This document shows, in pieces, positions 2,757 through 23,106 of a stretch of DNA of 24,671 nucleotides. This DNA is from a virus, in IMG/VR virus record IMGVR_UViG_3300044682_000006, positions 1-24,671 of that record; one strand, given 5' to 3'. The translations under genes were made by a program, and so were the position numbers. Position 1 is the first letter of the stretch. Every line of letters starts with the position of its first letter. The notes below the pieces were generated by a model, which saw only the letters and a list, made by a program, of their open reading frames with translations, was not told the DNA's origin and made no database searches.

Positions 2757-3196
2757 TGGAAAACCCTCTCCTAAGCGTTCCAGACTTCCTCAAGCGCATC
2801 ACGTACAAGCCCGGCTGGAAAATCAAAATCGTAGAGCACCACGATGCCATTGGAACCTTTGACGTGAGGGTGATCTACGACGGCTACGAGTCAAAAAATG
2901 CGGCGTTTGATCCAATTTGCTTTGAGGAGCGGCAGGTTACGAAAGCGAGAGAAGTTTGGTCGCGGTCCATTGGAAAATCTGTACGACATGAGAATAAGTT
3001 CTGCTTCCGCCGCACGTTCTGCCGTTACGATCTTGAGCACATGAGGCCAGAGGATATTATCCGATACGTCATCGGCGACACGATCAAGCAAGCCGAGATG
3101 TACGAGTTCGAGCGGTGGTTTAAGTTTGATGGCGTACCTATTTTTGAGCATCGCGAGGAATTGAAAGATGGAACAGGAACAGGAAGAAACAGTTAA
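2756..3196 (+). CDS. Hypothetical protein
   Basis: 146 residues from a GTG at 2756 that overlaps the preceding stop. An in-frame ATG at 2669 exists but lies inside the previous gene and would add an uncharacteristic Cys/Arg/Ser-rich stretch. The protein opens with a hydrophobic/basic segment (FLKRITYKPGWKIKIVEHHD), followed by strand-rich sequence and a paired-Cys stretch FCFRRTFC. The C-terminal helix is amphipathic and the extreme end is low in complexity. The layout suggests a small soluble alpha/beta protein of phage metabolism. No known family is recognised. Confidence 0.7.
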   Translation: MENPLLSVPDFLKRITYKPGWKIKIVEHHDAIGTFDVRVIYDGYESKNAAFDPICFEERQVTKAREVWSRSIGKSVRHENKFCFRRTFCRYDLEHMRPEDIIRYVIGDTIKQAEMYEFERWFKFDGVPIFEHREELKDGTGTGRNS

Positions 3197-3446
3197 TCCG
3201 CTTTGGTCCCGCACTGCCGTCTGCTCATGTACTGGCGGCGGCAAGCCTACGATGCTCCAAGGCGAGATGGTAATATTCCGTAATCCAGCCTGCCGTGTTC
3301 ATCAAGTCGTTGCGGTAGCCAACCCCTATGCAGCGGTAAGCGCGGAAGCGGTTGTTGGTAGTTTTAAGGGGAGGGAACGGAAATTCGGAGAAAGCAGCGA
3401 AAGAAGTATTTTGGCGTTTTGCGATTCGATAATGAACGCGAAATAA
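3168..3446 (+). CDS. Hypothetical protein
   Basis: 92 residues. ATG 3168 follows GAGGAATTGAAAG and overlaps the end of the previous gene by 29 bases. The opening is acidic (MEQEQEE). A Cys-x-Cys pair (CSC) and a Cys-x2-His (CRVH) could bind a metal. A hydrophobic stretch rich in Ala and Val (VVAVANPYAAVSAEAVVGSF) follows. This is the last + strand gene before a gene-poor region. No family recognised. Confidence 0.6.
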   Translation: MEQEQEETVNPLWSRTAVCSCTGGGKPTMLQGEMVIFRNPACRVHQVVAVANPYAAVSAEAVVGSFKGRERKFGESSERSILAFCDSIMNAK

Positions 3447-3465
3447 ATACACTCCACCCTATTTT

Positions 3466-3843
3466 CTAAGTTCTTAATATTTTGCTTTTGTTTGTTTTTG
3501 TACTTATAAAACCCCTATTCCCTAAACCCGGCAGGGCATAGAGCGCAGTAATTGGCATATCTGCCTCTGCGTCTCCAAAGGGAATAAGAGAAAAGTCGGG
3601 TTGATCCCGAATTCCCCACGTTGTTGGGTCTTGTGCTGCGTCACACTCGCAAATTACGCAAGCGCCCCAATGCAGCAATCTCGGCGGACCCTAGCCACGA
3701 AGTCGGCATCCCGTCACCGGCTGTTCCTTTTAAGGCGTACAGCGCAACCACTCTGCTACGTCAAATTGGTACAGCTTGGTGCCAGCAGAAAGTACACTCC
3801 CGGTGGGAATAGCACAGGTCGAATTGTTCGAGGGCGATTCCAT
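3466..3843 (-). pseudogene. Possible decayed minus-strand gene
   Basis: On the minus strand, three adjacent reading frames each give protein-like sequence. Starting from an ATG (3843-3841), the first is 37 residues, with TGSVLSAGTKLYQFDVAEWL and a stop at 3732-3730. An overlapping second frame reads VVALYALKGTAGDGMPTSWL, then SAEIAALG. A third frame (TTG near 3678 to the stop at 3466) gives 70 residues, including FSLIPFGDAEADMPITALYA. Read together they would make a protein of about 120 residues with two frame changes. This may be a decayed gene, assembly indels or chance. No clear promoter or ribosome-binding site is seen, and the function is unknown. Confidence 0.3.
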
Positions 3844-10063: not shown

Positions 10064-12232
10064 ATCTACTCGACAAAGATCATCGAGCAACGCTTAGATG
10101 CCTTTGAAGCATCGGAGGCTTGGCGTCCAGTTCGCCACACCCTGGCAGAAGTTGAGGAATTTACCGCTTACATTAAATCGATCACAAAGATTACGAGCAA
10201 TTCCAAAAATTCATATATCGACGTAGTGGCCAATCTGACAGAAAAGCGGGAGAAAGAAATACGTCGTTGGGTAGACAACGAGAAAGTGTTATGCTCTTTC
10301 GACTCAAGCTATTTTGAGAATAATTATGCTTACGTGTGCGACGAGAAGGGACAGATTTTCAAGTTCCACAATCGTCTTTCGCAAAAGATTTTCGACTCTG
10401 TAATTGCCGAGTTTGACGAAAGGCAGGTATCGATAGAACTGCTGATCTTGAAGGCTCGCCAGGTGGGCGTGACCACAAAGACAGCCTTAAAGTTTATTCA
10501 TCGTATGCTTTTCATGCCACACACGCAGTCTGTGATGGCTTCTGTTGATTCAAAGAAATCAGAACTCATCGGTCGCATCCTTGATACGGCTCACGACTTC
10601 TGTCCGTTTTGGCTTGTGCCAATCAGGACGAAAGATTCTCAGCTTGCAAGGGAATACGCGAACAAGTCAATCCTTTCCATTCAGTCTGGTTCACAGGCTA
10701 CAGGCTTGGCGCAGGGGTGGACACCTACGAATATTCACGTTTCCGAGTTAGCTGATCTTAAAGACGCCAAGAAAACGATTGAAGAAGGTCTTCTAAGAGC
10801 AACACACTCTTCCCGCCATCTGTTCATGGTGCTTGAGGGCACAGGCGGAGGCAATACGGGATGGCTAGCTGATACATGGAGAACATCTAAAAAAGATTGG
10901 CCAAGTTCGAGATTGTGCCCCATTTTCATTCCATGGGCGATGGTTCCCGACCTGTATCCAGAAGAAGATTGGATACGGAAGTTCCCCATTCCTGATGACT
11001 GGCATAGAAAGATTTCAGATATAACACGCAAGCATGTAGCACGTTGCGAGTCTTACATTCGCAATACTCCTTATCTTGCCAAGGTTGTAGGTCGTGATTG
11101 GAGGATGCCAGAAGAGCAGAAATGGTTCTGGCAATTTAACTACGACGCTGCCTGCCAGAACCACACGCAAAAGATTTGGCTCGCACAGATGGCGGCTGAC
11201 GACTTTGAGGCTTTGACTGGAGTTCATGACACTGTTTTCGATCCAGAAGTCATATCGGAACTCGAAAATAATGTGTATGAGGTGGTAGGGGAAGGGATAA
11301 AAGAAGAAAGAGTTCGCAGAGAACCGCTGCAAGCCTACGCCATAACTGGGCATTCGGTTGAAGACGCATTTGAACCAGACGAATCACAGATCGATTACGA
11401 TAAGCCAATCATTACTGTCGAATGGAAATCCAATCGGGGTGAGGAATATAGTTGGGACATGATTCCACTTCTTCCGATCAACGAAGATGTGGAGAAGGAC
11501 ACATTCGATAAGCTCTTAGTCTATGAGGAACCGAAGGCTGGATACGATTATGCCTGCGGCGTGGATACCGCTGACGGGTTGGATAAGGAAGACGAAGAGC
11601 GGGCCTGTGCATCTATTTCCAAGGTAGGGACTGGATCAGGATACGACGAACAATGTTGTGAACTGACGAGCCGCAGGATGAACCCAGCACAAATGGTTCC
11701 ATTTGTAGCTTGTATGGCGACATGGTATGGGCGAAGAACCAAAGATCAGAGAGGCGTAAAGTTCGCCATCGAACAGGTAAGAGGGCCAGGAGATACGTGC
11801 CAGAACCAGTTAAAAATCATGGGGTTCAACTACCACCATGCTCCACGGCGCTACGACTCTAAGAAGATCAAGGATGAATCGAAGCACAAGCAAGGATGGT
11901 ATTCCACTTCTTGGAGTGTCCCGATGCTTATGACGAGCTTTGTAGAGGCTGTCAATGGAGGCTGGTACATACCGAAATCGAAGTGGCTGATCGAAGAATG
12001 TAAGACTCTTGAGCGCCACATAACCGGCAGTAAATCCAAGATGGAGCACAGGGAAGGACAATTCGATGATCGCGTGAGAGCGGCGGCGCAGAGCTATTTC
12101 ACGACGCATGACTTGGATGACTTTACGCAGCGGAGTCAAAAGCGGTATTCTCTTCCAAAGAGAAAGCAGAAGGACCCGAACGAGGGCCGCTGCCTAATGA
12201 ACGCCGTATCGGTTTTCGGCGATGACGATTAA
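10064..12232 (+). CDS. Terminase large subunit
   Basis: DNA-packaging ATPase and nuclease that translocates phage DNA into the prohead and cuts it. Counting from the GTG at 10226, the Walker A variant KARQVGVTTKT is at 76-86 and the Walker B-like HVSEL at 171-175. The nuclease acidic residues are in GVDTADG (445-451), FAIEQVRG (~513-520) and FDDRVRA (613-619). The frame stays open and protein-like upstream of that GTG for 54 more codons (FEASEAWRPVRHT...EEFTAYI). That stretch contains no ATG, GTG or TTG, yet a strong GGAGGGG sits five bases before an ATC at 10064. I therefore place the start there, provisionally. From the GTG it would be 668 residues, from the ATC 722. Confidence 0.9.
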   Translation: MYSTKIIEQRLDAFEASEAWRPVRHTLAEVEEFTAYIKSITKITSNSKNSYIDVVANLTEKREKEIRRWVDNEKVLCSFDSSYFENNYAYVCDEKGQIFKFHNRLSQKIFDSVIAEFDERQVSIELLILKARQVGVTTKTALKFIHRMLFMPHTQSVMASVDSKKSELIGRILDTAHDFCPFWLVPIRTKDSQLAREYANKSILSIQSGSQATGLAQGWTPTNIHVSELADLKDAKKTIEEGLLRATHSSRHLFMVLEGTGGGNTGWLADTWRTSKKDWPSSRLCPIFIPWAMVPDLYPEEDWIRKFPIPDDWHRKISDITRKHVARCESYIRNTPYLAKVVGRDWRMPEEQKWFWQFNYDAACQNHTQKIWLAQMAADDFEALTGVHDTVFDPEVISELENNVYEVVGEGIKEERVRREPLQAYAITGHSVEDAFEPDESQIDYDKPIITVEWKSNRGEEYSWDMIPLLPINEDVEKDTFDKLLVYEEPKAGYDYACGVDTADGLDKEDEERACASISKVGTGSGYDEQCCELTSRRMNPAQMVPFVACMATWYGRRTKDQRGVKFAIEQVRGPGDTCQNQLKIMGFNYHHAPRRYDSKKIKDESKHKQGWYSTSWSVPMLMTSFVEAVNGGWYIPKSKWLIEECKTLERHITGSKSKMEHREGQFDDRVRAAAQSYFTTHDLDDFTQRSQKRYSLPKRKQKDPNEGRCLMNAVSVFGDDD

Positions 12233-14491: not shown

Positions 14492-14908
14492 ATGAAATTC
14501 TTTTGGAACCGCATCTTTCAGGCTCTATTCGGCTGGTCATTGGTTCTACCGTCGAAAGCAGAACCCGCAAAACCGTTCGAGGGAAAAATCACATCCACAG
14601 AATCCGACGATGAGGTATGGATCGAACCATTAGAAATTGCCGAAGATTCTATTCTCAGACAAACTGACCCACTTCTCATGACGAGGAAGGAATGCCATGA
14701 GAGTACGGTGCGCTACTGGATGGAACGCAAAGGATATTCAAAAGAAGAAATTGCGAAGCCTTTGACGGATGATAGACTCAAAGAAATTGGCAGAGTAACA
14801 TTCAAAGAGCACTACCAAGCTCAGGAACGCAATCGCAGGGTTGTTAAGGCTGATCCGAGGTTTGAGGGATATGTTCTTCCAATCGCTGATGCACGGGAGG
14901 TTGAATGA
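14492..14908 (+). CDS. Paralogous phage protein A (duplicated domain)
   Basis: 138 residues. The N-terminus (MKFFWNRIFQALFGW) is hydrophobic/basic and may be a membrane-associated or signal-like segment. The core shares a clear pattern with the next gene: TDPLLM...HE.TVR.(W/F)MERKGY...EI..PLTD.R...IGR.T. The two must derive from a tandem duplication. The core is helical with an aromatic 'MERKGY' turn; no catalytic residues are evident. The stop overlaps the next ATG (ATGA at 14905-14908). Confidence 0.65.
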   Translation: MKFFWNRIFQALFGWSLVLPSKAEPAKPFEGKITSTESDDEVWIEPLEIAEDSILRQTDPLLMTRKECHESTVRYWMERKGYSKEEIAKPLTDDRLKEIGRVTFKEHYQAQERNRRVVKADPRFEGYVLPIADAREVE

Positions 14909-15450
14909 AATTCTTCACGATTGAAATGACCAGAAAAGATACTCTCAAGGGAGTTCTGCTTCGCACTCCATGGTTTACTTTCGCAATATATCCTTCAGTG
15001 CAGTCGCCAGAAGAGACGATAGCCGATAAGCCATTCCCCACGCCGCTGTGGCAAACCCCAGATGGAATAGCGAATAGGACAGACCCGCTGCTCATGGATG
15101 GGCAGCAGCGCCATGAGAATACTGTTCGCATGTTTATGGAGCGAAAGGGCTACAAGAGAAAAGAAATTGATCTGCCGCTCACGGACGAGCGGATGGGGAG
15201 AATCGGAAGAATGACTTACGGTGATTACGAGCGGTTTATCAATCGTTTAAGAGCTAATCACGCCAAAATGTATGAGAACCAAAATCCAATGGGTGCTGTA
15301 CACTCTGGGCAAACAGTGGATATTCGGTGCAAAGAGAATAAAGCAATGACCGCCGTTGCGCCTGTCCTGCTTGAGCGAACCTGTGAAGGCGGCAAGACGT
15401 ACCAAGTCTTGATGGAAGACTTTAAGGCTGGAAAGTATGCGCCAAAATAA
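14905..15450 (+). CDS. Paralogous phage protein B (duplicated domain)
   Basis: 181 residues; ATG overlaps the previous stop. It keeps the shared core of the preceding gene (TDPLLMDGQQRHENTVRMFM, then ERKGY...EIDLPLTDERM, IGRMTYGDYE) but has a different, longer C-terminus (RCKENKAMTAVAPVLLERTC...). The N-terminal strand segment (LLRTPWFTFAIYPSV) differs from the hydrophobic start of paralog A. The added C-terminus may give a separate partner. No known function; it immediately precedes the promoter of the regulator unit. Confidence 0.65.
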   Translation: MKFFTIEMTRKDTLKGVLLRTPWFTFAIYPSVQSPEETIADKPFPTPLWQTPDGIANRTDPLLMDGQQRHENTVRMFMERKGYKRKEIDLPLTDERMGRIGRMTYGDYERFINRLRANHAKMYENQNPMGAVHSGQTVDIRCKENKAMTAVAPVLLERTCEGGKTYQVLMEDFKAGKYAPK

Positions 15451-15463
15451 GCAGAAATAACGC

Positions 15464-15491
15464 TTGACAATCGCTATACAGTATCTATACA
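15464..15491 (+). promoter_or_regulatory. Promoter with direct-repeat operator for the RHH unit
   Basis: TTGACA (15464-15469), a 16-base spacer and TATACA (15486-15491) form a near-consensus sigma70 promoter. Two copies of CTATACA (15474-15480 and 15485-15491) lie 11 bp apart, one helical turn, overlapping the promoter. ATACAGTAT (15476-15484) is also palindromic. Such repeats suit a dimeric ribbon-helix-helix repressor. The start point would fall near 15498, two bases before the regulator's ATG. Confidence 0.65.
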
Positions 15492-15499
15492 TTAAAACC

Positions 15500-15661
15500 A
15501 TGCCAAGTCGAACTTCAGTTGGATATAGGCTGTCGGATGGGGCATTGAAGTTAATCATTTCCCTATCTGCTGCTATGGGCCTTTCCAAAACTGCTGTGAT
15601 CGAACTTGCGGTTAGGGAACTGGCGCGAAGAAACAAAATCACTCAATCGGATGCAGAGTGA
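15500..15661 (+). CDS. Ribbon-helix-helix (RHH) regulator
   Basis: 53 residues from ATG 15500 (MPSRTSVGYRLSDG). A longer in-frame form beginning at the TTG inside the -35 box is rejected. A short strand (TSVGYRL) is followed by helix one (SDGALKLIISLSAAMG) and helix two (SKTAVIELAVRELARRN), the Arc/MetJ-type RHH layout. Such dimers bind operators through a two-stranded sheet. The -10/ATG spacing implies a nearly leaderless transcript. No ribosome-binding site precedes the ATG, consistent with leaderless translation. It probably represses its own unit through the CTATACA repeats (inference). Confidence 0.75.
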   Translation: MPSRTSVGYRLSDGALKLIISLSAAMGLSKTAVIELAVRELARRNKITQSDAE

Positions 15662-15708
15662 TTATCCTCGGCATGGTCTTGGCAAATTCACACAAAAGAG
15701 GCGAATGT

Positions 15709-16329
15709 ATGGCTACGAAAGCGACAGCATTGTCGAATGTGTCCAACGATGCACAGTTGGACGTTGAAATTCAAACCCCGTTTATGGTTGAGGCTTCCAT
15801 TGAAGGCTCAGCGGCAATTCTTTTCCATCGCTGGTCCTGTGAGGCCGTGGCAGAGAAGGCGGCTTCAAAGAAAGGTTCTGCCGCAAAAAAGAGCGACAAC
15901 ATCGAGAGCTACATGTATCGTGACGAAAAGGGGCATGTGGCGATTCCCTCCGAATATTTCCGCATGAGCATCATCGGCGCAGCCAAGTTCAAGCAGGACC
16001 CGCGCTCACCGCGTAAATCAGCGATGGATTTGTTCAAGGCTGGTATATGCACCATTGGTGAACTGTGCTCGTTGGGTGTGAAGGAACCTGATTATCTCGA
16101 TCAGCGCCGCGTTGTGATTCAGCGCAATGGCATTACTCGCGTTCGGCCCGCGATGCTTGCTGGTTGGAAATGCAAGGTTTCGCTACAAGTTTTGTTGCCC
16201 GAATACATTGACCATCGGATGCTGCACGAAACGCTTGCTTACGCTGGCCGTATCGTTGGCGTTGGCGACTTTCGGCCTTCGTTTGGTCGCTTTCAGGTCA
16301 CGGCTTTCAATGTGATCGAATTGAAGTAA
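15709..16329 (+). CDS. Conserved phage protein of unknown function
   Basis: 206 residues from ATG 15709. A GTG at 15658 overlaps the regulator stop, but the stronger AGAGG site and the typical opening MATKATALS favour the later ATG. Recognisable segments are a glycine/hydrophobic FHRWSCEAVAEKAASKKGSA, a charged SPRKSAMDLFKAGI, and a C-terminal AGRIVGVGDFRPSFGRFQVT. The Gly/Arg/Phe-rich end with small strands is typical of compact sheet proteins of the RAMP-like kind, which is a guess. Similar proteins occur in other phages without known function. Its gene directly precedes the 5-nt GG array. Confidence 0.7.
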   Translation: MATKATALSNVSNDAQLDVEIQTPFMVEASIEGSAAILFHRWSCEAVAEKAASKKGSAAKKSDNIESYMYRDEKGHVAIPSEYFRMSIIGAAKFKQDPRSPRKSAMDLFKAGICTIGELCSLGVKEPDYLDQRRVVIQRNGITRVRPAMLAGWKCKVSLQVLLPEYIDHRMLHETLAYAGRIVGVGDFRPSFGRFQVTAFNVIELK

Positions 16330-16334
16330 CACGC

Positions 16335-16765
16335 GGCGTGTCACGGTCGGCACAGGAACGGCGCGGACAGATAAGGACTGGCAATCCACGGCGAGTTCCG
16401 GAGAGGCGGGTTGAGATATGGTCCGGCAAGACAAGAACGGGTAGGATGTGGTTCGGTCGGCAATGGTAGGGCATGGAACGGGTCATTATGACCGGCATGG
16501 TGAGTCACCGGTGCGGCGAGGGATGGAATGGGCACGTCGGGGAGTGGTTCTGCAAGGATGGCCACGGCACGGAGCGATTCGGTCGGACGGGGACAGGCAA
16601 TGCGGAGCGATGTATGGCAGGACATGGAACGGGCCGAAAGGCCGGTAAGGAGTGGTCTGCTCTGGAGAGTCCAGCAATGGCGAGCAACGGAGTGGAGAGA
16701 TTGGGTCAGGAACGGCGTGGCGGTGCATGGAAAGCAAAGGCTAGTCAAGGATCGCCAAGGCGTGG
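16335..16765 (+). repeat. Degenerate GG array with 5-nt phase
   Basis: About 430 bp of G-rich sequence in which GG steps recur every 5 or 10 bases, such as AACGG, CGCGG, CATGG. By hand count about 50 of some 63 GG runs keep one of three phases: 16335-16540, 16546-16631 and 16644-16764. The lattice slips only twice. Words recur (CATGGAACGGG and CAGGAACGGCG, twice each). Short hairpins are embedded: ACACG-CGG-CGTGT (16329-16341), GTCAT-T-ATGAC (16482-16492), GGCC-GAAA-GGCC (16632-16643) and CTGGA-GAG-TCCAG (16662-16674). A 5-nt period conflicts with triplet coding, so it is probably non-coding RNA or DNA. Function unknown. Confidence 0.75.
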
Positions 16766-16767
16766 TG

Positions 16768-16800
16768 AAATGGCAGACTTTAGGGTCTGCCATTTCCTTT
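16768..16800 (+). terminator. Rho-independent terminator after the array
   Basis: A perfect 11-bp stem AAATGGCAGAC / GTCTGCCATTT (16768-16778 and 16785-16795) encloses the loop TTTAGG and is followed by CCTTTTG. Its length and downstream T tract fit a strong terminator. It closes the unit that begins at the promoter 15464 and separates it from the portal promoter at 16805. Confidence 0.8.
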
Positions 16801-16804
16801 TGTG

Positions 16805-16833
16805 TAGACAGTTGAGAGTGTTTGTTTTAAGAT
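16805..16833 (+). promoter_or_regulatory. Promoter for the portal gene
   Basis: TAGACA (16805-16810), a 17-base spacer and TAAGAT (16828-16833) give 5/6 and 4/6 matches to sigma70 consensus, immediately after the terminator. The predicted start point is near 16840. The leader to the portal gene would be about 45 bases and carries GGGAGGAAAG as ribosome-binding site. Confidence 0.6.
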
Positions 16834-16849
16834 GCAATTCAGTTGCATC
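16831..16849 (+). promoter_or_regulatory. Inverted repeat at the portal start point
   Basis: GATGCAA-TTCAG-TTGCATC is a perfect 7-bp inverted repeat with a 5-base loop. It overlaps the end of the -10 box and the expected transcription start. It could be an operator (DNA) or a 5' hairpin (RNA). I did not notice a second copy in the window. Which protein would bind it is unknown; candidates are the XRE regulator at 6573 and the RHH regulator at 15500. Confidence 0.5.
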
Positions 16850-16887
16850 CAAGGGTGCTGCGCGAACCGGGAGGAAAGCGATGCGGT

Positions 16888-18972
16888 GTGTTTCTTGATC
16901 ATGTTGAAACGGTAAGTTGGCAAGCGCCGCCCTTCGAAGCTCCATCCAGCACAAAAATTGGCTGGATCGAGGACATGCTCAGCGAATCAGAAGGCTGGTT
17001 AAGCGGCCAAAAAAGCTATAAGAATCTTGCATCTAACCTAGCTGTTTTCAATGGTTTATTTAAAGATAAAGCAAAGTCTGTTCTGGTCACAAACGGCTTG
17101 CGGTACGCCGCCACAAAATTCGTTACGACCTTAGCAGAGGTCAGAGAAATTGCTGCGTATGGCTCCGACGTAAAAGCCTACAAACAGATGGCCGAGATGC
17201 TGACAAAGGTCTCGAAATGTGTTTATCTAGAATCCGACTTCCCAATCCAAATCTTGCGTGTTCTGCAGTACGCAACCGTTATGGGCATCGGCTATCTGTG
17301 GCCCAAGGTCCGTCCGACCGAGTATGGATATGGTCCAAGGGAGATGGTTTTTGATGCGCTAGGACTCTTAGATGTAATGCCAACTCAGATTCCGTCTAGG
17401 TCGAATGACATCCAAGATGCTTATTCCGTAACGATTTACGATTACATGCCTATCGCCGAATCCTATGGGAGATTTCCTCTCTATCAAGGAAAATTACAAA
17501 CTGTTGGCGTCAATTCTTACAAAAGTCTGATTCAGGCCAAGCGGCAGGACTTTGCTGCTTCCTATCGTTATGGCGATCTACAGGACCAAGGAAAGAGTTT
17601 CGGCAATCTATACACCGAGATAAGATACACATTCATCAGGGACTTGCGCATCAACAACACTGGTTTTGAGATGCAGTGCGGAGAACCTGGAACGTCATGG
17701 TATTACAAGGTTCCGTACATCGGGCAGGATATTTTTGGAGGAATTAGGAATGGTCAACCTTACATGCGCCCCGCAATGGCTGAGGATTGCCGCCTGTACC
17801 CTAACCTGCGGCTCATCATTTCATCGAACGGGCTGGACAGGCCAATGTACGACGGTACTGCATTCGACTGGGACCCAAACATCCCGGTAATTCAATACAC
17901 CGTAGACGATGTTCCGTGGGAGCCGGGAGGAAGATCGTTGGTTGGTGCCGTAGCGTCTATCCAGACAACCATCAGGAAATTCGAGCGTTTGATAGATCAA
18001 ACATCCTGCGCCGAAAAGGACCCTGCTCTTGGCTACAACGCTGACGAAAACGGAGGACCAAAGATTGAACACTGGGACCCGTTTGAATCAGGCACAAGGC
18101 TTGGACTATTTGGAGGCGGCAAGCCGCGAGATACTCTCCAATCGCTGCTTCCCGAAGGCGTAGCAGTAAAAAGCATAGATTTTGAATTGTTGAAGTATTA
18201 TCACGATTCCATGTTTGCCGAACTCGGATTAAACGATGTAGGCAACATTGCCAACATCAAGATCAACATGAGCGCGGACGATGCACAGAAGCAGATCGAG
18301 TCCATCGGGCCTATCGGAAAAGGCATTGCGATGCGACTGGAGAAGGCCAACAAGAAAGTAGGAGAAAGAGTTAAGTACCTTATACCTCAATGGTTTGACA
18401 CGCAAAGACTCATTGAGTACGTCGGCGAGGATCACATTGCAAGAGAAGTGTTCGACTACAATCCCGACGACATGGTTCCCAGCCATTTGCCAGACGAAAT
18501 GCTGCCTACAGGACAATTCCCCACCACGCCGTCGATGTACGACAAATTGACTAGGGCGAAGTGGCTGGTAAAGAAATTGCGGCTGATTTCTGTGCCGAGC
18601 ATGTTGCTGAAATTGACTGCGCAGGCTGAACAACTCAAATACTTGCAGCTCAAGCGTCAGCCGGATTGTCCATTGAGTTGGTCAACCTGCTTTGAGAAAT
18701 TGGACGTGCCTAACCCGAAAGAGGAAATTGAGAAATACTTTAAGGAGCAAATGCAATTGACCAAGATGAAACTCATGGCCGCTGCGATGGCCCAGAAGGA
18801 GATGCAGGAGTTAGGACTACAACCTCCAGAGGAACAAGGTGGCGGTAAGGGAGGCGGGAAGGGTGGAGGGCTGCACGCTGGTGGCAGACCGCCGAGTGGC
18901 CAACGTCCACCAAAATTGGCCCAAAAGGGCGGAGCGGGTGGCGCTGCCAGGACGGTCGTGAAAGAGTCGTAG
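16888..18972 (+). CDS. Portal protein (head-tail connector)
   Basis: Likely portal protein, the dodecameric ring through which DNA enters and leaves the head. From the GTG at 16888 it has 694 residues, in the size range of large podovirus-type portals. A long helical stem-like region includes NMSADDAQKQIESIGPIGKG. Helices follow (LTKMKLMAAAMAQKEMQELG), then a Gly/Lys/Pro-rich, probably disordered tail (GGGKGGGKGGG). The position among terminase, scaffold and capsid genes supports it. The start is uncertain: the ATG at 16881 with ideal ribosome-binding spacing is out of frame and ends after five codons. An upstream in-frame TTG at 16843 is also possible. Confidence 0.8.
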   Translation: MFLDHVETVSWQAPPFEAPSSTKIGWIEDMLSESEGWLSGQKSYKNLASNLAVFNGLFKDKAKSVLVTNGLRYAATKFVTTLAEVREIAAYGSDVKAYKQMAEMLTKVSKCVYLESDFPIQILRVLQYATVMGIGYLWPKVRPTEYGYGPREMVFDALGLLDVMPTQIPSRSNDIQDAYSVTIYDYMPIAESYGRFPLYQGKLQTVGVNSYKSLIQAKRQDFAASYRYGDLQDQGKSFGNLYTEIRYTFIRDLRINNTGFEMQCGEPGTSWYYKVPYIGQDIFGGIRNGQPYMRPAMAEDCRLYPNLRLIISSNGLDRPMYDGTAFDWDPNIPVIQYTVDDVPWEPGGRSLVGAVASIQTTIRKFERLIDQTSCAEKDPALGYNADENGGPKIEHWDPFESGTRLGLFGGGKPRDTLQSLLPEGVAVKSIDFELLKYYHDSMFAELGLNDVGNIANIKINMSADDAQKQIESIGPIGKGIAMRLEKANKKVGERVKYLIPQWFDTQRLIEYVGEDHIAREVFDYNPDDMVPSHLPDEMLPTGQFPTTPSMYDKLTRAKWLVKKLRLISVPSMLLKLTAQAEQLKYLQLKRQPDCPLSWSTCFEKLDVPNPKEEIEKYFKEQMQLTKMKLMAAAMAQKEMQELGLQPPEEQGGGKGGGKGGGLHAGGRPPSGQRPPKLAQKGGAGGAARTVVKES

Positions 18973-18995: not shown

Positions 18996-19235
18996 ATGGC
19001 GATCAAAATTAAGGTGCAACGGGATTACTTGCTTACTGAAGCTTCCATCGAATTGGCTGCCGACGTTTCACAGGTAGATGAAATTCTCAAGGCGAGCAAG
19101 TCGAACGGGAAAATGGTTGTGCTTTACAACCAGGGATGCATACAGGGGATCAACGTCGAGCAGAGAACAAAACTCAGTGACGTAAACGCGGAGAAGGTTC
19201 GGCAATTGTTAAAACTGGAAGATGTTGAACTATAG
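18996..19235 (+). CDS. Small hypothetical protein after the portal
   Basis: 79 residues behind AAAGGAGAAAA. Begins with alternating basic strand residues (MAIKIKVQRDYLLTEASIEL), then two helices rich in Leu, Lys and Glu. Small alpha/beta proteins directly after portal genes often serve the head, but no family is recognised here. Its stop touches the stop of the antisense HNH gene. Confidence 0.65.
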   Translation: MAIKIKVQRDYLLTEASIELAADVSQVDEILKASKSNGKMVVLYNQGCIQGINVEQRTKLSDVNAEKVRQLLKLEDVEL

Positions 19236-20042
19236 GTCGCCAAAGAGAGATGGTTGATCGGGATTAGAGTCTTTCTTCCTTTTCTGGCCTTGCATGATCG
19301 CAACAATCCTTTCTCTTTCGGCAGGATTACTCCCGTTATCCTTCCATCGATTAGCGGCCATCGACATAACCCAAACGTTCCCTTTTGTATAACCCAATTC
19401 GGGAACGATTTTGTCAACACTGGCCCAAACTCTACGATCAGGGCCATGATGGTAGTCGAGTCTAATATGCGGGAATAATGGGCAGAAGACTGGCAATTCA
19501 CACGTCGTTTTATCGAGCAGATCAGAAGCTACCATGCCGAACGGAATTCCCTTCCTATTCGCCCGTTCTTTGCACCTGCTTACAGCCTGCTTTGCCCAAT
19601 TATTTTCTTTCCATTTAGCCGTCGCTTTTGCACGTTTGTCAGGATGCTTCGCAGTAAAAGTAGCAGCCCATTTCTTGTTTAGCTCTTTGAAGTGTTCGGG
19701 ATTCTTCTTTCTGCTCTTTTTTGTCCGTTCATATCTCTTATCGTGATCAGTCGTTTCTTGAATGCACTTCTTGCACCGCGACCTGTATCCAGATTTGGTG
19801 AAGCAATCCTTACTGAAACTGCTCAGCGGTAGGTACTTTGTACATCTGGAGCATTGCTTAGTTTTGAATTCCTCATCATTTTTACGGAGCAGTTCTTCTA
19901 TGGTTTCCTCTAATTCATCACTATCGTCCGAATCGTTTTCAGCCTCATCCAATAGTGGAGCGTCAGCTTCGAATGTGAAGCGGACAATCGACCAATCATT
20001 AGGTTGGCTTTCAGGATATAATTGTGGAAATGGGGTTGGCAT
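19230..20042 (-). CDS. HNH endonuclease, homing-type
   Basis: 270 residues on the minus strand, the only convincing antisense gene in this stretch. The ATG follows GAGGAGCGCAAA. A Cys-x2-Cys pair (64/67) and a second (90/93) form a zinc-binding module. Lys/Arg-rich helices follow, and a C-terminal core reads DYHHGPDRRVWASVDKIV...YTKGNVWVMSMAANR. The ASVDKI...GYTKGNV pattern is typical of a phage HNH family that cuts DNA and spreads by homing. The gene sits inside the virion module against the transcription direction, a hallmark of a mobile insertion. The N-terminal acidic segment (ENDSDDSDELEETIEELLRK) is an unusual addition. Confidence 0.85.
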   Translation of the reverse strand: MPTPFPQLYPESQPNDWSIVRFTFEADAPLLDEAENDSDDSDELEETIEELLRKNDEEFKTKQCSRCTKYLPLSSFSKDCFTKSGYRSRCKKCIQETTDHDKRYERTKKSRKKNPEHFKELNKKWAATFTAKHPDKRAKATAKWKENNWAKQAVSRCKERANRKGIPFGMVASDLLDKTTCELPVFCPLFPHIRLDYHHGPDRRVWASVDKIVPELGYTKGNVWVMSMAANRWKDNGSNPAERERIVAIMQGQKRKKDSNPDQPSLFGDL

Positions 20043-21858: not shown

Positions 21859-23106
21859 ATGGCAGATCCACTCTACGGTCAAATTGACGCTGCGGAACTC
21901 GAAGCGGTTCGCGTTGGTGTCCTCTGGAATAATTTATTCGTTGGGACACCATTCCAAGCCAAGCTACGTCGCGCAGGCGTATGGGACCCGTTCCTTGGCG
22001 GCGCTGGCATGAGAGAGAACATCCTCTACGGTCGCACACAGTACGCGGCGGTTGATTCTGGTCAGACCGTGACGGTGACGGCGCAGCAGATCAACTCTGG
22101 CATCAAGTTTCTGCCGAAGTTCTATGCGGCATGGTGGCCGATGGATGACGCGCTGTACGATGACGGTTCTGGAACGGGCGGCGTCATCAACTCTGGTCCT
22201 CCAACCATCATTGACGAGTACCAAGCCTACATGGAGAACATGGTGCTGGGCTTGAATACGGCGTTGGAAATGGATTCGTTCCGGCATGGACAGGCTTCAA
22301 GCGGAACAAGCATTACAGACAACCGTATCAAGGCCATCAACGGCTTGGACGAAGCGTTGAACAACGGCATCGATCCTTCCATCTACGGCAACATATACAA
22401 GAACTATGGTGGGCAGGTTCGTAATGGCGCTATCGGTGTTGCACTGAATTCTACCCCTCTATATCTGGGCAATGGTGGAACTCCTGGCCAGATCGATTTT
22501 GCGGCCATGACGCAGTTGAAGGCGCAATGCACAGTGACGGGTGGAAATCCAGACCTTGGCATTACCAACACTTTCGGGTACTCCGCAATCGCCATCGCAC
22601 TCGATGCGCAGCGCAGAGACGTATCGAACAAGAATCACGACATCGCATGGCGCGGGTTCAACTTCGATGGAATCGACATTTACGCTGATCCTCTGGCACC
22701 ATCGGCTGCGGCTCAGAACTACATTGCACTGGCTCCGAATGATCCTGGACAGGGCAATGCTAACCTGCAGGACGGCGTTGGGTCGAGCACCACAACCGTT
22801 TCGTTTACGACTCCGCAATTCACGAGCAACGGAGCGAACGTGGCGTTCTCTCCAACGAACTCTGGTTTGCCGTCGAACACCGTTATCCAGCCGTCAGAGT
22901 ACCTTGCGTTCTTGGAGACGAGTTCGTTCAAGGTTCGCCCGACGAACAAGAGTGGCTGGAACTACGGAATCCGCAGAGCGCCAATGCCAAACAACGTGTC
23001 AATCGACGCAATCTTTATGCGCGTGAGCACGAACCTATATCAGTGCCAGCCGAGACATTCCGCGTATGCTTTTGGATTCAACGCAGGAATCTTCAACAAC
23101 GGTTAA
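21859..23106 (+). CDS. Major capsid protein
   Basis: 415 residues behind ACAGGAGAATAAG. An Asn/Gly/Tyr-rich sequence with mixed helix and strand follows a helical opening (DAAELEAVRVGVLWNNLFVG). Strand segments such as FLPKFYAAWWPMDDALYDDG and a C-terminal FRVRP-type stretch (SSFKVRPTNKSG...GIRRAPMP) fit a HK97-like shell protein. Length, codon quality and position directly after the scaffold-like gene support it. I see no cross-linking or maturation signature, and the assignment should be read as position plus composition. Confidence 0.8.
   Translation: MADPLYGQIDAAELEAVRVGVLWNNLFVGTPFQAKLRRAGVWDPFLGGAGMRENILYGRTQYAAVDSGQTVTVTAQQINSGIKFLPKFYAAWWPMDDALYDDGSGTGGVINSGPPTIIDEYQAYMENMVLGLNTALEMDSFRHGQASSGTSITDNRIKAINGLDEALNNGIDPSIYGNIYKNYGGQVRNGAIGVALNSTPLYLGNGGTPGQIDFAAMTQLKAQCTVTGGNPDLGITNTFGYSAIAIALDAQRRDVSNKNHDIAWRGFNFDGIDIYADPLAPSAAAQNYIALAPNDPGQGNANLQDGVGSSTTTVSFTTPQFTSNGANVAFSPTNSGLPSNTVIQPSEYLAFLETSSFKVRPTNKSGWNYGIRRAPMPNNVSIDAIFMRVSTNLYQCQPRHSAYAFGFNAGIFNNG

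Follow-up and report, generated by a model that had tools for sequence, protein, structure and literature searches.

Locus organization

The window analyzed is the whole stretch of 24,671 bases of IMGVR_UViG_3300044682_000006, which is the complete IMG/VR record of a tailed phage. Upstream of the portal gene lies a unit whose parts follow one another in a single direction: a promoter-like sequence, a probably leaderless gene for a ribbon-helix-helix (RHH) protein, a gene for a 206-amino acid protein, a period-5 GG array and a terminator. The initial annotation had proposed this in-line arrangement, and every one of its parts is confirmed here. Elsewhere the phage encodes a terminase (10226-12232, phrog_5989), a P22-like portal in the open reading frame at 16843-18972 and a major head protein (21859-23106). 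Comparison with the relative L012 indicates that portal translation probably starts at the GTG at 16888 and not at the first TTG at 16843. Two other genes were recorded in passing. An Endonuclease VII/HNH-like gene lies on the opposite strand amid the structural genes (19230-20042, minus strand) and is possibly a homing-type insertion, and the protein encoded at 1693-2535 strongly matches phrog_5931 (E 6e-56), a family without known function.

The promoter-like sequence TTGACA-18-TACATT (15464-15493, plus strand; 10/12) precedes the RHH gene. Sites of this class number four in the region, against 4.8 expected by chance, and TTGAC is kept at the equivalent place ahead of the RHH gene in all four close relatives inspected. 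Its spacer and -10 element contain a CTATAC-AGTAT-CTATAC repeat, which is a possible operator; spacer repeats occur in some of the same four relatives. At the other end of the unit, the intrinsic terminator (16767-16806, plus strand) consists of a 13-bp perfect stem (16767-16796), a loop of 4 and a T-rich tail, with a folding z-score of -5.78. The new promoter that had been placed five bases later is a weak promoter-like sequence preceding the portal gene (16805-16833, plus strand; 9/12) and starts 8 nt past the stem instead. The relative L006 has the same order, with a terminator and then TAGACA...TAAGAT after its array.

The first gene of the unit (15500-15661, plus strand) encodes a 53-amino acid RHH-like protein with a weak PHROG match to a transcriptional regulator (E 8.7e-5) and no match in Pfam, PADLOC or NCBIfam. 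Leaderless translation is plausible because its ATG at 15500 lies ~7 nt past the -10 element. An RHH gene is found upstream in 8 of 84 loci that encode a homologue of the 206-amino acid protein, and the RHH regulator is therefore no general part of the system; it would set expression in this clade at most.

Protein homology and fold

The second gene (15709-16329, plus strand) encodes the 206-amino acid protein, referred to here as the 15709 protein. The system to which it is compared, VIPR, combines a RAMP protein, Vipr, with vrRNAs built of YNNGG repeats (PMC13142463, preprint April/June 2026). VIPR recognizes DNA through the NN pairs, with one target base skipped per unit, and is used in conflict between phages (PMC13142463). 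The model systems are those of phage SUSP1 and a Pseudomonas fulva prophage, of type II (PMC13142463; PDB 36pp). SUSP1 Vipr co-purifies with GG-repeat RNAs, and a published vrRNA has 9-16 repeats and ends in a 3' tail that is structured and conserved (PMC13142463). In the literature library searched, no other paper on VIPR was listed.

The 15709 protein matches phrog_4652, a family of unknown function, with an E-value of 1.5e-16, and has no match in Pfam, PADLOC or NCBIfam. A search of the PDB with the single sequence returns one weak match, to SUSP1 Vipr (36pp, E 6.7e-4). This match improves to 2.1e-8 when a profile of 8 homologues is used and to 5.9e-12 with a profile of 58 homologues, for which SUSP1 Vipr is the sole match. 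An AlphaFold2 model generated from 57 homologues has a pLDDT of 88.2 and a pTM of 0.81 and supersedes an earlier model from 8 sequences (pLDDT 66). All 50 matches listed by Foldseek for the model, the best with an E-value of 1.8e-6, are to chains from CRISPR effector complexes, and VIA-align superimposes it on type VII complex chain 8yhe_F with a Z of 12.7 and an rmsd of 3.8 over 164 aligned residues. The alignment of the model with Csm3/Cas7 spans residues from about 22 to 206, and the protein carries a glycine-rich loop, GVGDFRPSFGRF; G184, D187, G193 and R194 are invariant among the 57 homologues. Since the profile matches SUSP1 Vipr and the model matches Cas7/Csm3, sequence and fold searches concur. 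The protein is a RAMP homologue with an RRM core and G-loop, as expected of a Vipr, and by fold similarity also a RAMP backbone protein of the Class 1 CRISPR-Cas kind. The comparison with RNA-binding folds that had been suggested for this protein thus leads to the Cas7/RAMP fold.

Relatives of the protein also occur outside viral records. A search of genome contigs with the single sequence finds none, and the same search with an alignment finds 34, located on bacterial genome contigs (L195-L228) that belong in many cases to Phycisphaerales/Planctomycetes MAGs. In Stenomitos rutilans, two copies of a Vipr homologue share one contig.

A different account of the two genes would make them a toxin-antitoxin-like pair, with the RHH protein as antitoxin and the 206-amino acid protein as toxin; the GG array would then be a structured leader or an antisense RNA. 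The placement of an RHH gene ahead of a small protein and the autoregulatory look of the promoter suit this account, but the fold of the partner is RAMP/Cas7/Vipr-like and not that of a type II toxin, no RHH gene was found upstream in 76 of the 84 homologue loci, and the GG array decodes to foreign portal sites, as described below. It is considered very improbable.

Array analysis

The vrRNA array occupies 437 bases (16332-16768, plus strand), in which a period-5 HMM recognizes 88 consecutive units with the consensus G-G-Y-N-N. Autocorrelation of GG at lag 5 gives 27, whereas 2000 dinucleotide shuffles give 12.5 +/- 3.2 and never exceed 23. Taken alone, the longest uninterrupted run of GG (5) is unremarkable, with a null maximum of 7, since another base often takes the place of the second G. 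Unit weight matrices give frequencies of 0.89, 0.71 and 0.82 for G, G and Y in the close clade and 0.94, 0.84 and 0.91 in other loci, so that the close clade varies more at the second G. Tandem Repeats Finder, run over the whole phage record, does not report the GG array, since each 5-base unit is conserved only in part and falls below its threshold. A search of Rfam over 15400-17000 yields nothing meaningful, with one sub-threshold match to the terminator hairpin.

A period-5 GG array lies within 1.2 kb of the vipr homologue in 77 of the 84 homologue loci, a count that omits the repeated loci L003, L008, L011, L013-L015 and L038; the remaining seven have no array at the threshold used. Arrays lie upstream in 54 loci and downstream in 51, within up to 1.2 kb on each side. 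Adjacent RNA genes of alternating GGY and NN, which are a hallmark of VIPR, are accordingly found both here and across the homologue loci. The association of protein and array, initially proposed from adjacency with a search for co-occurrence as its check, is borne out by this count, by the Cas7/RAMP fold and by the published co-purification of SUSP1 Vipr with such RNAs (PMC13142463). Sequence reading also points to a possible relic of an upstream vrRNA, two to three units long, between the RHH and vipr genes (GGCAT GGTCT TGGCAA, 15670-15685, plus strand). The corresponding gap in the close relatives L001, L006 and L012 carries a further array of 13-20 repeat units.

The array is interrupted by two short hairpins, GGTCA-TTA-TGACC (16481-16493, plus strand; z -1.85 over 16470-16500) and GGCC-GAAA-GGCC (16632-16643, plus strand; z -3.12 over 16621-16650), each a candidate vrRNA tail or boundary. 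Hairpins alike in form but different in stem sequence (GGCC, GGCG, GGCT, GGTCA and others) recur in arrays of close relatives and suggest that the structure has a conserved role, perhaps that of a vrRNA tail or boundary. Across 176 arrays, 21 such hairpins are observed against 7.2 expected from shuffled units, and several of those outside the close clade may be due to chance. Guides with matched targets, as decoded below, span 8-17 units across all arrays; those of this phage have 10 units and lie within stretches of about 25-29 units delimited by hairpins, so that vrRNA boundaries here are not simply the published 9-16 repeats plus tail. Two other loci carry single short arrays of 20-21 units directly 3' of vipr (L110:366 and L111:4602), whose matches to portal genes of siblings extend over 15-17 units; they may represent the natural length of one vrRNA.

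Guide decoding

For decoding, the NN pairs from all arrays are searched with 0, 1, 2 or 3 skipped bases. Match counts in the 3681-guide, 1.59-Mb and 2.18-Mb scans described here are not independent events, because duplicates remain; some loci also share a contig (e.g. L001/L011 and L012/L104). When 3681 ten-unit guides are compared with the collected loci, with arrays masked and some duplicate contigs included, a skip of 1 gives 30 matches of at least 19/20 and skips of 0, 2 and 3 give none. At a threshold of at least 18/20, the same scan gives 76 matches for skip 1 versus 8, 4 and 5 for skips 0, 2 and 3. The array of this phage alone, searched against 1.59 Mb, has 60 matches of at least 18/20 with skip 1; skips 0, 2 and 3 yield 1, 2 and 0, and three shuffles of its unit order have none. 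A second scan of all arrays, which omits L008, L011, L012, L013, L014, L015 and L038, gives 130 matches with skip 1 and 6 (skip 0), 3 (skip 2) and 7 (shuffled units) in the controls. Its skip-3 control is contaminated (81 matches, 20 after a GG filter, scores up to 104) because its step of 5 coincides with the period of the arrays, of which duplicates had been left unmasked. The comparison between skips therefore rests on the 3681-guide and 1.59-Mb scans, where the skip-3 control is clean.

Across all arrays, 24 guide groups have a match, and a reading frame is available for 22 of them. Of these 22, 14 have the skipped base in the third codon position (p 0.0035). The framed groups divide into 11 same-sense and 11 antisense, which fits recognition of DNA rather than of mRNA. 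The rule of one skipped nucleotide per unit, characteristic of VIPR, is thus recovered, and as judged by sequence matching alone the published code holds in this clade.

These results also bear on the reading of the array as a protein-coding or low-complexity repeat with no guide function. Open frames do traverse it on both strands, but the variable dinucleotides occupy fixed positions in the units, and the decoded matches, which contradict such a repeat, are lost with other skips or when the order of units is shuffled. This reading is so improbable that it can be set aside.

Two guides of this phage were decoded. Guide C2 (16704-16753, plus strand) consists of 10 units that read CA AC GT GG AT AA AA TA AA TC and match the portal codons Q-T-V-G-M-N-N-Y-K-S of sibling phages at 20/20, with the skipped base at the wobble position. 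The exact gapped pattern of C2 occurs in 11 contigs among 2.9 million viral contigs, every site lying in a portal gene; for one of them, L174, the portal placement was determined apart from the other ten. When two bases are skipped instead of one, these letters occur in no contig of that collection. Guide B1 (16510-16560, plus strand), also of 10 units, matches the portal codons A-E-M-x-T-G-V-S-K-C of sibling phages, at 19/20 in one contig (L229) and at 18/20 in L136 and L137. Both guides have the same sense as the portal mRNA and therefore cannot act on it as antisense, while pairing with template DNA is possible. No convincing target was found in the 2.18 Mb searched for about 68 of the 88 array units; segments 16332-16479, 16561-16630 and 16644-16703 have only weak matches (at 16390, score 13, and at 16674, score 14), level with controls.

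Self and sibling targets

The portal gene of this phage lies directly 3' of the unit, which raises the alternative that VIPR serves self-regulation here, with guides that delay the phage's own late genes through the portal operon and sibling matches that merely reflect homology. Own and sibling sites are compared across 82 portal genes or regions, namely 80 portal loci, this phage and L006, with near-identical contigs included. Among these, C2 matches 10 at 20/20 but the phage's own portal at just 15/20 (rank 42), at the homologous site at 17497-17526 (plus strand), where valine, serine and AGT serine codons break the match. B1 is more favorable to self-regulation, since it matches the own portal at 17/20 (17191-17220, plus strand). 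This score is shared by 42 of the 82 (the own gene and 41 others) and exceeded by two at 18; because the own gene is matched like most siblings, self-sparing is unproven for B1. In a comparison of ten guides, two of them overlapping, the best own-locus match is in each case below the foreign match shown, a result favored by picking the best among many foreign loci.

Guides of siblings point in the opposite direction. A 15-unit guide of L104/L012 matches 27/30 at 16865-16909 (plus strand), around the likely portal start at GTG 16888, and an 11-unit guide of L006 matches the own portal at 20/22 at 16906-16938 (plus strand). C2 in turn matches L104, which is on the same contig as L012, at 20/20 and L006 at 19/20. 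As sibling guides match the portal start of this phage and C2 matches those same siblings, this phage and siblings L104 and L006 appear to aim guides at each other. A guide of L104 at 9799 reaches a score of at least 16 on this phage alone. With these matches against it, self-regulation is regarded as unlikely.

Guide-like matches are also found beyond the portal genes. In an array ~3 kb upstream of vipr (L104:5496), a 12-unit guide matches a gene of sibling L094 at 24/24 in the antisense orientation. In the arrays of L050 near 2925-3556, guide-like units that can be read on both strands match the RTRPAMKAGW codons of vipr in L024, L027, L028 and L036, and VIPR may in such cases be aimed at other VIPR systems.

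Proposed mechanism

The preferred reading, which is held to be very probable, is that the unit is a VIPR locus whose guides bind the DNA of sibling portal genes and so bring about interference between phages. Homology, fold, array, skip-1 code and target sites were computed here. The 15709 gene would produce Vipr, the Cas7-like RAMP protein, and the GG array would be transcribed into vrRNAs. Vipr subunits would hold the G-G-Y positions in a ribonucleoprotein, leaving the N-N positions to pair with DNA, with one target base skipped per unit. At least two guides would then land on the portal gene of close relatives, and the complexes, once bound there, would keep the rival's portal operon from being transcribed, probably in the course of co-infection or superinfection. 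The phage's own portal would be spared or less affected owing to mismatches. The RHH protein is a candidate regulator or vap-like DNA-binding accessory; it probably represses its own promoter, although we infer this autoregulation, or else may act as an accessory specific to the clade.

A more elaborate picture, offered tentatively and given somewhat less than even chances, is that the clade represents a distinct VIPR variant engaged in a reciprocal war among siblings. Its long arrays would be divided by short hairpins that covary, each segment perhaps holding two guides, and would be controlled by RHH from a leaderless promoter; portal codons would be read mutually, and the phages would have escaped their own guides through amino acid or codon changes.

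The analysis provides an independent check of a noncontiguous guide code in uncultivated phages far from the two model systems and demonstrates that the code can be read by computer. A concrete target, the sibling portal gene, together with a reciprocal pair of phages makes the natural purpose of VIPR testable.

Comparison with known systems

The locus is a VIPR system, a known kind, of a remote clade, and sequence matching gives good support to the view that it works by RNA-guided binding to the DNA of rival phages. The initial annotation had regarded it as a candidate undescribed phage system, but the kind is already published (PMC13142463). Its suggestion that the protein may act on the array RNA is right about the link; by homology, however, the protein would not merely act on this RNA but use it as a guide to DNA. 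Like the systems of SUSP1 and P. fulva, the locus is phage-encoded, has a Vipr homologue with adjacent GGY/NN arrays, follows a code that skips one nucleotide, often at the wobble position, and has guides aimed at competing phages. It differs from them in several respects. Its Vipr aligns only remotely with that of SUSP1 (profile E 5.9e-12), its array is longer, with 88 uninterrupted units and short internal hairpins, its second G is less constant, and an RHH gene lies upstream. Its targets are sibling portal genes, whereas the word 'portal' is absent from the main text of PMC13142463.

With the Cas7/Csm3 backbone of Class 1 CRISPR-Cas systems (type III-A and type VII), the protein shares the RAMP fold and a glycine-rich loop, at ~10% identity in structural alignments. 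A crRNA array, in which long identical repeats alternate with unique spacers, is neither reported by a tandem repeat scan of the record nor seen in the sequence of 14800-17600; the phage has an array of period 5 with two coding bases. By its match, the 15709 protein is a member of phrog_4652, an uncharacterized family without assigned function that is here tied to VIPR and thereby gains a likely function.
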